NCBI RefSeq assembly: GCF_041821065.1
Contig: NZ_JBGUAX010000001.1
Location: 434,001-498,000, forward strand
Direction: 5' to 3'
DNA length: 64,000 nt
Origin: Egicoccus sp. AB-alg2
GTDB taxonomy: Bacteria > Actinomycetota > Nitriliruptoria > Nitriliruptorales > Nitriliruptoraceae
The notes under the pieces are model-generated. The model saw nothing but the letters and a program-made list of their open reading frames with translations. It searched no databases and was not told the DNA's origin. The position numbers and the translations under genes are program-made. Shown here in pieces: positions 27,254 through 30,912 of the stretch; the stretch's first letter is position 1; each line of letters begins with the position of its first letter.

Positions 27254-27259
27254 TCGGGG

Positions 27260-27331
27260 TGGGCACGAGAGGTATCGAACCTCTGACCTCTGCCGTGTGA
27301 AGGCAGCGCTCTCCCACTGAGCTACGTGCCC
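27260..27331 (-). tRNA. tRNA-Val(CAC)
   Basis: The minus strand folds as a complete tRNA: acceptor GGGCACG/CGTGCCC, D-arm AGCTCAGTGGGAGAGC, anticodon stem CTGCC/GGCAG with loop TTCACAC (anticodon CAC, valine GUG codons), T-arm AGAGG-TTCGATA-CCTCT and discriminator A. CCA is not encoded. A TACGGT -10-like element lies about 15 nt upstream of the 5' end, and a terminator hairpin follows. Confidence 0.95.
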
Positions 27332-29399: not shown

Positions 29400-29657
29400 G
29401 GGTATGGCACAGTGGTGCCACCAGAGAAGGGAGGTGGTCCGTATTGGATAGCAGTCATCACGGGACCCTGGAGGTGCACGGCCGCTAGGCCGTCGCTGGT
29501 ATGCCCGGCGGAATCCAACCGATGCACCGCCACTGCGCGCCGGTCGGGAATTCGTCCCGCCTGACGTTCCGGGGGTGGTCCGCCACCTGCGGAGCGGTGC
29601 CAGAGGTTCCACCAGCAGTCACAACGCGAGGGGCGCGGCCACCGGCCGCGCCCCTCG
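29400..29657 (+). ncRNA. Candidate structured RNA / small-ORF transcript ending at a strong hairpin
   Basis: Several nested pairings can be drawn on the plus strand: GGTGCA (29473-29478) with TGCACC (29523-29528) closing a domain that contains hairpin CGGCC/GGCCG (29479-29492), and CGGGA/TCCCG at 29545-29559. A 14-bp terminator stem ends it at 29627-29657. Inside is a short frame from TTG 29444 to TAG 29488, preceded by GGAGG at a 9-nt spacing, with product (M)DSSHHGTLEVHGR. No known RNA family was recognised. The promoter is unclear (TTGACG at 29395-29400 lacks a good partner). This could be an sRNA, a leader or a tiny gene. Confidence 0.3.
29628..29656 (+). terminator. Strong hairpin terminator upstream of the Na/Pi gene
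   Basis: GAGGGGCGCGGCC (29628-29640) pairs perfectly with GGCCGCGCCCCTC (29644-29656) around the loop ACC. An extra C-G pair closes the stem. There is no U-run after it. It separates the structured segment from the Na/Pi cotransporter promoter. Confidence 0.7.
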
Positions 29658-29718: not shown

Positions 29719-29724
29719 TAGGCT
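29719..29724 (+). promoter_or_regulatory. -10 box (TAGGCT) of the Na/Pi-phoU operon
   Basis: TAGGCT lies about 43 nt before the GTG at 29767 and downstream of the terminator hairpin, so the transporter operon has its own promoter. No clear -35 was seen. Confidence 0.4.
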
Positions 29725-29766: not shown

Positions 29767-30912
29767 GTGGTCGAGTCGTCTGCCCGCGCCGCCGCCCGTC
29801 GCGAACTGCCGACGCCGCTGCGTGCGCTCCTCGTCCTGGTCCTGCTGTACGCCTTCCTCGTGGGCGTCGGGTTGCTGGAGACCGGGATCGCGGCCCTGGG
29901 CGAGGGGTTCGAGGAAGGACTGCTGACCAACGTCGCCAACCCGATCTCCGGGTTGTTCGCCGGCATCCTGTTCACCGTGCTGGTGCAGTCGTCGTCGGTG
30001 TCGACGTCGGCCATCGTGGGGCTGGTCGGGGCCGGCACGCTGTCGGTGCCGCTGGCCGTGCCGATGATCATGGGCGCCAACATCGGCACGACGGTCACCA
30101 ACACGCTCGCCTCCCTGGGCAACATCCGTCGCTCCGACGAGTTCCGTCGCGGCTTCGCCGGCGCGACGATGCACGACTTCTTCAACGTGCTCGCGGTGGC
30201 CGTCCTGCTGCCGATCGAGTTGATGACCGGCTTCCTCGCCAACATCGCCGAGGCGCTGACCGAGCGCCTGCGCGGGGCCGAGGTCTCCGAGGTCGGCACC
30301 AGCCCGATCCGCACGGCGGTGAAGGCGCCGATCGGGTTGGTCGAAGCCTTCTTCGACGGTGATCCGTTCGGCGGCCGGTTCGCCGGCGTGGTCTTCCTCG
30401 CACTCGGCCTGGGGCTGATCTTCCTGGCGCTGGGGCTCATCACGCGCAACATGCGCGAGCTGGTGGCCGGCGGCGTGGAGCGCGCCATGAACAAGCTCGT
30501 CGGGCGCGGGGGTGGCGCCATGGGCATCCTGGTCGGCATCGCCGTGACGGTGTCCGTCCAGTCCTCGACCATCACCACCTCGATCCTGGTGCCGCTGGTG
30601 GCGGCGGGCATCCTGACGTTGCCCAACGCCTACCCCATCACCCTGGGCGCCAACGTCGGCACCACCATCACGGCACTGCTCGCGTCGCTGGCCGTTCTGC
30701 GGCCCGAGGGGCTGACCATCGCCCTCGTCCACACGCTGTTCAACGTGATCGCACTGGCGGTGCTCTATCCCGTGCCGCGCCTGCGGCTGCTGCCCGTCCG
30801 CCTCGCCGAGGGGTTGGCCGGACTCGCCGTGCGGCGGAGATCCGTCGTGTTCGGCTACGTCCTGGGACTCTTCCTGGTCGTACCGCTCCTGGGCGTCTTC
30901 CTCATCCCGTGA
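29767..30912 (+). CDS. Na/Pi cotransporter family protein (NptA/YjbB-like)
   Basis: This 381-residue membrane protein has two inverted PNaS repeats. Each holds the family hallmark: VLVQSSSVSTSAIVGLVGAG with MIMGANIGTTVTN, then VSVQSSTITTSILVPLVAAG with ITLGANVGTTITA. About eight to ten membrane helices are visible. It imports, or in some bacteria exports, phosphate with sodium. The PhoU-like gene 15 bp downstream supports a role in phosphate homeostasis. The GTG start has GAGG about 10 nt upstream. Confidence 0.92.
   Translation: MVESSARAAARRELPTPLRALLVLVLLYAFLVGVGLLETGIAALGEGFEEGLLTNVANPISGLFAGILFTVLVQSSSVSTSAIVGLVGAGTLSVPLAVPMIMGANIGTTVTNTLASLGNIRRSDEFRRGFAGATMHDFFNVLAVAVLLPIELMTGFLANIAEALTERLRGAEVSEVGTSPIRTAVKAPIGLVEAFFDGDPFGGRFAGVVFLALGLGLIFLALGLITRNMRELVAGGVERAMNKLVGRGGGAMGILVGIAVTVSVQSSTITTSILVPLVAAGILTLPNAYPITLGANVGTTITALLASLAVLRPEGLTIALVHTLFNVIALAVLYPVPRLRLLPVRLAEGLAGLAVRRRSVVFGYVLGLFLVVPLLGVFLIP

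Follow-up and report, generated by a model that had tools for sequence, protein, structure and literature searches.

Ms_IGR-5 (Rfam family RF02471) is an already known and little studied RNA of Actinobacteria. It has been reported as an expressed small RNA in Streptomyces and mycobacteria, and the accessible parts of the papers concerned describe its transcription in Streptomyces (PMC8079986, PMC8780764) and ribosome footprints on it in M. abscessus and M. smegmatis (PMC4974804). A short open reading frame (ORF), complementarity to 16S rRNA and a pseudoknot are not described in the accessible parts of the Ms_IGR-5 literature, and a literature search, with subscription papers mostly and preprints wholly outside its reach, returned nothing on its function, an ORF or 16S pairing. 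The 64-kb stretch of Egicoccus sp. AB-alg2 DNA analysed here (the window) carries at 29420-29657, on the forward strand like its parts described below, a conserved structured RNA that stands alone and has a promoter-like signal and a terminator stem to itself. Comparison of covariance models gives good support to its being a divergent homologue of Ms_IGR-5 that scores below the Rfam cut-off. The element is not a member under the rule that Rfam applies, and by homology it is part of the same, larger family. The first-pass annotation had suggested a new small RNA; the small RNA stands, while its being wholly new does not, and what is new here is the anatomy of an Ms_IGR-5 homologue.

The homology is apparent from models built on each side. 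The RF02471 gathering cut-off is 45 bits (Rfam release 15), and one of the ten loci tested exceeds it (L076, 46.4 bits); in one draw of 149 phylum genomes the RF02471 model was positive in 30, none of them from the window's own taxonomic family. Model R1 was built solely from copies of that family, and model R2 solely from loci found by RF02471. R2 has a single significant match in the 64-kb window, at 29420-29579 (E-value 1.4e-14, next best 3.6), and also detects other copies of the window's own family. R1 in turn matches the RF02471-found loci at identical places (best E 2.2e-22) and all 71 copies tested from outside the family (E 1e-12 to 1e-28). Among the copies that it recovers, those that pass the Rfam cut-off include L173 (2e-9), L174 (1.8e-6) and L171 (1.4e-4) and, with weaker matches, a Streptomyces-like (L166, 0.0022) and a Mycobacterium-like copy (L162, 0.019). 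These reciprocal matches argue for a divergent Ms_IGR-5 homologue in the window. The two share a 5' Shine-Dalgarno (SD) sequence, a frame that ends Glu-Val-x-x-x-stop, a loop GUCC opposite GGAC in the ORF, and an intergenic position as a stand-alone unit; they differ in the 3' arm, which is longer and family-specific in the window's family.

The RNA has a wide distribution in the phylum. A DNA similarity search of 61 relatives of the window genome located homologous intergenic segments in 28, nearly all from the window's own family; two matches outside it are short and cover the terminator stem alone. Near-invariant blocks in the alignment of the family copies are ACCAGAG(G/A)AAGGAGGTGGTCC, the TTG frame ending ...GGGACCCTGGAGGTGxxCGGCCGCT-stop, a GTCGGG...GTCCC...CCCGAC hairpin, CGGTGCCAGAGGTTCC and the terminator stem. 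Scanning species genomes with the pattern GGAGGTGG-gap-GGGACCCTGGAGGT identified more than 120 stretches, which with few exceptions belong to Acidimicrobiia, Thermoleophilia and Nitriliruptoria. A broader pattern matched in 104 of 396 phylum genomes, a few of these matches being due to chance on inspection, and the reversed control pattern matched in a handful. The homologue sets used below, of 160-184 copies, come from Nitriliruptoria, Acidimicrobiia, Thermoleophilia and Mycobacterium- or Streptomyces-type genomes; they were gathered by pattern search and RF02471, with covariance models run at the locus level, and the copies from the window's own family were found without any pattern. Two copies (L059, L054) have extra inserts of tens of bases behind the stop-codon hairpin described below, so the arm between the hairpins appears to tolerate insertions.

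The 5' end of the element has a promoter-like arrangement. Of the copies outside the window's family, 73% have TANNNT 22 or 23 nt ahead of GGAGG; within that family the -10 is degenerate and a conserved TGTGG precedes it. In the window the putative signal is TGG with a degenerate -10 (CACAGT) at 29405-29413, the position of the conserved -10 of the homologues, and a sigma-70 promoter scan of the region called nothing. With the first A of ACCAGAG, some 12 nt past the start of the -10, conservation among 139 copies from outside the family leaps to about 1.8 bits, and this abrupt onset suggests that transcription starts at 29420.

The SD sequence of this RNA is of unusual extent. GGAGG is read at 29430-29434, within an extended SD at 29425-29441 that can make 17 contiguous pairs, G-U allowed, with the 3' tail of 16S rRNA; the tail of this genome (L221), GGATCACCTCCTTTCT, is the reference for complementarity. 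Over 160 copies the median is also 17 contiguous pairs, with a free energy of about -30, part of this pairing being built into the search pattern and its 5' extension not. By the same measure the genes of the window have a median of 6 and a maximum of 10 pairs. In the whole 4.84-Mb genome a 16-nt pattern of this sequence is present in this RNA and on the strand opposite the 16S gene, and at no other site. Most of the extended SD is held in the loop of an ACCA/TGGT hairpin (29420-29423/29435-29438). An internal mimic of the anti-SD was considered as a universal off-switch and rejected, since no more than 27% of copies score above their shuffles, the window copy not among them. As a separate observation, an exact GGATCACCTCC or GGACCACCTCC mimic follows the stop codon in three copies (L189, L191, L170), and counting near-exact ones, mimics that could pair with the copy's own SD occur in these and in L172 and L224; the window copy has none.

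The micro-ORF extends from TTG at 29444 to TAG at 29488 and would encode the peptide (M)DSSHHGTLEVHGR. An in-frame start-like codon at SD distance is present in 182 of 184 distinct copies, against 21-22 of 184 in the other two frames, and the distance from the SD to the codon GAG takes all values modulo 3. GAG itself occurs in 184/184, followed by GTG (180) or GTA (4), and the stop lies exactly 15 nt past GAG in 182 of the 184 (TAG 137, TGA 35, TAA 10), for a length of 12-15 codons. The start codons of 160 copies are usually weak: TTG 57, CTG 43, ATG 26, ATC 11, GTG 10, ACG 8, ATT 3 and ATA 2, where the non-NTG codons are the best in-frame candidates.

It is possible that the peptide of 12-15 residues is the product and that the RNA fold is only regulatory, since frame, start and stop are conserved and a Thr-x-Glu-Val motif is found in nearly all copies; we regard such a micro-protein gene as rather unlikely. 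The residues that look conserved are those encoded by paired nucleotides, namely of the pseudoknot and helix C (see below), and the residue before the stop varies freely (Arg, Cys, Ser, His, Gly). The remaining, variable residues have no synonymous excess: close pairs of copies differ by 32 synonymous and 144 nonsynonymous changes, where about 1:3 is expected. It is thus well supported by these comparisons that the position of the start, the frame and the stop are conserved; the variable residues of the peptide show no sign of amino-acid selection. The SD-led short frame of the first-pass annotation is genuine in this sense, and its suggestion of a small-protein gene of the usual kind does not hold.

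The predicted fold of the region is more stable than those of its dinucleotide shuffles (z score -3.5, with 0 of 200 as low). In the alignment of the window's family 94.5% of cells keep their pairing, and the covariation score is above all shuffles. Helix C (GGTGCA/TGCACC, 29473-29478/29523-29528) encloses two hairpins, at 29479-29492 and 29494-29510, of which the first (CGGCC/GGCCG, 29479-29483/29488-29492) holds the stop codon. It covaries in 91 copies, and column 93/210 has six pair types, in an alignment that was fitted to the model and is thereby biased toward helix C. The pseudoknot pairs GGGAC within the ORF (29462-29466) with GTCCC (29554-29558) in the loop of the hairpin GTCGGG/CCTGAC at 29543-29565, which contains CGGGA/TCCCG and has a homologous hairpin in the other clades inspected. 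Among copies with a variable base the pseudoknot is paired in 49 of 53, where shuffling gives a mean of 24 and a maximum of 34; the loop was picked for a stable stem and for containing GTC, and whether it could pair with the ORF played no part. The neighbouring base occurs as G-C, C-G, T-A and A-T, and the complementarity is visible by eye (GTGACC/GGTCAC, GCGACC/GGTCGC, CGGAC/GTCCG). Strong stems are common in intergenic DNA of such high GC content, so a chance structure had to be considered; it is refuted by the phylum-wide conservation and the covariation, and we give it practically no credence.

Another pairing, helix A, joins GGGACCCTGG (29462-29471) to CCAGAGGTTCC (29600-29610) in the window's own family only. 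It is paired in 96% of cells there, with no two-sided changes, and as a general core it is unsupported outside that family. At the 3' end is a perfect 14-bp stem with the loop ACC (29627-29640/29644-29657), which is kept among relatives while its sequence changes. A terminator scan was silent here because no T-run follows the stem; many relatives have T-rich tails. Of the strong terminator described earlier, the perfect 14-bp stem is borne out, and it is terminator-like. The stems, GGAGG, TTG frame and 14-bp stem listed by the first-pass annotation are all present, and the covariance check it called for has been run, with covariation in helix C and in the pseudoknot, the latter above shuffles. 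A resemblance to riboswitch cores was also mentioned; no Rfam riboswitch matches at gathering or permissive thresholds, and the letters resembling a B12 box are not conserved in relatives. A known riboswitch class was rejected on the same absence of an Rfam match, and also because there is no metabolically coherent set of downstream genes, the neighbours differing between classes.

The 5' strands of the pseudoknot and of helix C lie within the ORF, so a translating ribosome must open both, and translation and folding of the core are mutually exclusive. Being read by the ribosome is probably part of how this RNA works. Starting from the homology, 16S complementarity, frame and covarying folds, which come from comparison, a mechanism with 30S capture, weak-start initiation and fold switching can be proposed. 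The extended SD would capture a 30S subunit, and initiation at the usually weak start, followed by the reading of 12-15 codons, would decide if the pseudoknot and helix C can form. From the start codon to the pseudoknot strand it is 12, 15, 18 or 21 nt, a distance that places the strand close to the front of a ribosome at initiation, which would thus abut it. The sequence GAGGTG (29471-29476), which encodes Glu-Val and in which the 5' strand of helix C begins, is SD-like and lies 6 nt ahead of the last sense codon; as this gap is a normal SD spacing, it could hold a terminating ribosome. The stability of the RNA, or an activity of its 3' half, may then report ribosome availability or the initiation state. 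We incline, with slightly better than even confidence, to explain the element as an Ms_IGR-5 homologue that is a free-standing small RNA and has its folding gated by ribosomes. A more specific version is offered tentatively as a possibility that we would not yet favour: a phylum-wide, stand-alone sensor of the translation machinery, in which the 30S is captured via the entire 16S tail, initiation is tested at a deliberately weak start so as to read the state of initiation factors or of the ribosome, and the fold is switched by a frame translated for the act and not for the product.

Alternatively, the RNA may mainly capture free 30S subunits as a decoy, or protect itself by doing so, with the ORF merely clearing or positioning the ribosome. 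The unique 17-nt complementarity to 16S rRNA would suit a decoy, as would weak start codons, which would lengthen the life of initiation complexes. It would leave unexplained the exact frame, the stop and the covarying pseudoknot in the ORF, and from one chromosomal copy very high expression would be needed to titrate ribosomes; a decoy is in our opinion unlikely. Several points weigh against the ribosome-gated homologue as well. RF02471 does not match the window copy at its gathering cut-off, at E<=5, or genome-wide at E<=10. The evidence for transcripts and footprints stems from mycobacteria and Streptomyces, not from the organism of the window, and the footprints possibly reflect bound ribonucleoproteins, since the authors of that study remark that footprints occur on many non-coding RNAs (PMC4974804). 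Because the SD core, GAC and GAGGTR were required by the broad patterns, their invariance is partly built in. Finally, the pseudoknot strands are invariant in the window's own family, where helix A competes with the pseudoknot for GGGAC.

The genes adjoining the element vary. In the window's own family nptA-phoU nearly always follows it directly on the same strand, and in the window the Na+/Pi cotransporter gene (PF02690, E 3.8e-36) lies outside the RNA at 29767-30912. The element might thus act in cis on the cotransporter and PhoU genes, as a leader of the riboswitch or attenuator type. This position carries little weight, as the whole block downstream is syntenic in the family anyway, and paralogous nptA-phoU pairs occur without the RNA. 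The element of Salsipaludibacter has an aldehyde dehydrogenase gene facing it, and that of Solirubrobacterales follows gyrA (named from sequence); neighbours vary by class, and a same-strand gene directly downstream is often missing. The terminator stem and a probable -10-like box, TAGGCT (29719-29724), which has a similar counterpart in two further species of the genus, also intervene between the RNA and the cotransporter gene. A leader function is accordingly very improbable, and the varied neighbours across lineages indicate a unit of its own. The separate transcription unit noted at the outset is supported, and the association with phosphate genes is limited to the window's lineage, with gyrA or other genes next to the element elsewhere.

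Some further observations concern these neighbourhoods. Two loci (L030, L033) have two nptA-phoU pairs within about 4 kb, with the RNA ahead of just one. The longest GyrA of the Solirubrobacterales cluster carries, behind 'AMRY', an insert that starts with Cys and resembles an intein. Two genes upstream of the RNA, a tRNA-Val (CAC) gene occupies 27258-27331 of the window on the opposite strand, and several genomes of the window's own family have a tRNA-like sequence with a CAC anticodon directly upstream, also on the opposite strand.

The family, annotated and functionally blank, spans Mycobacterium- and Streptomyces-type genomes to deep-branching Actinomycetota, and ribosome-gated folding is a concrete, testable hypothesis for such a widely conserved small RNA; a caution is that the Rfam RF02471 model detects just part of the family. 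Dual-function small RNAs of the SgrS and RNAIII type also have an SD-led short frame, and encode a functional peptide, whereas no peptide selection is seen here. The STAB-SD stabilisers of Bacillus cry mRNAs have a strong SD-like sequence that is thought to bind 30S subunits, and lack the conserved frame and pseudoknot. Leader-peptide attenuators resemble this RNA in having a short frame that overlaps alternative RNA pairings, and differ from it in that there is here no conserved downstream gene and no run of regulatory codons. In S. aureus, infC, ccpN and cvfC1 have extended SDs with non-canonical starts that are modulated by IF3 (PMC13009471), and in Flavobacteriales the extended SD of rpsU senses ribosome composition (PMC9976891). 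These S. aureus and Flavobacteriales mRNAs have in common with the present RNA an extended SD at an initiation site that is conserved and regulatory, and the S. aureus mRNAs share the weak start codon too. They encode functional proteins, whereas here the extended SD leads into a frame of 12-15 codons, without peptide selection, in a stand-alone structured RNA.
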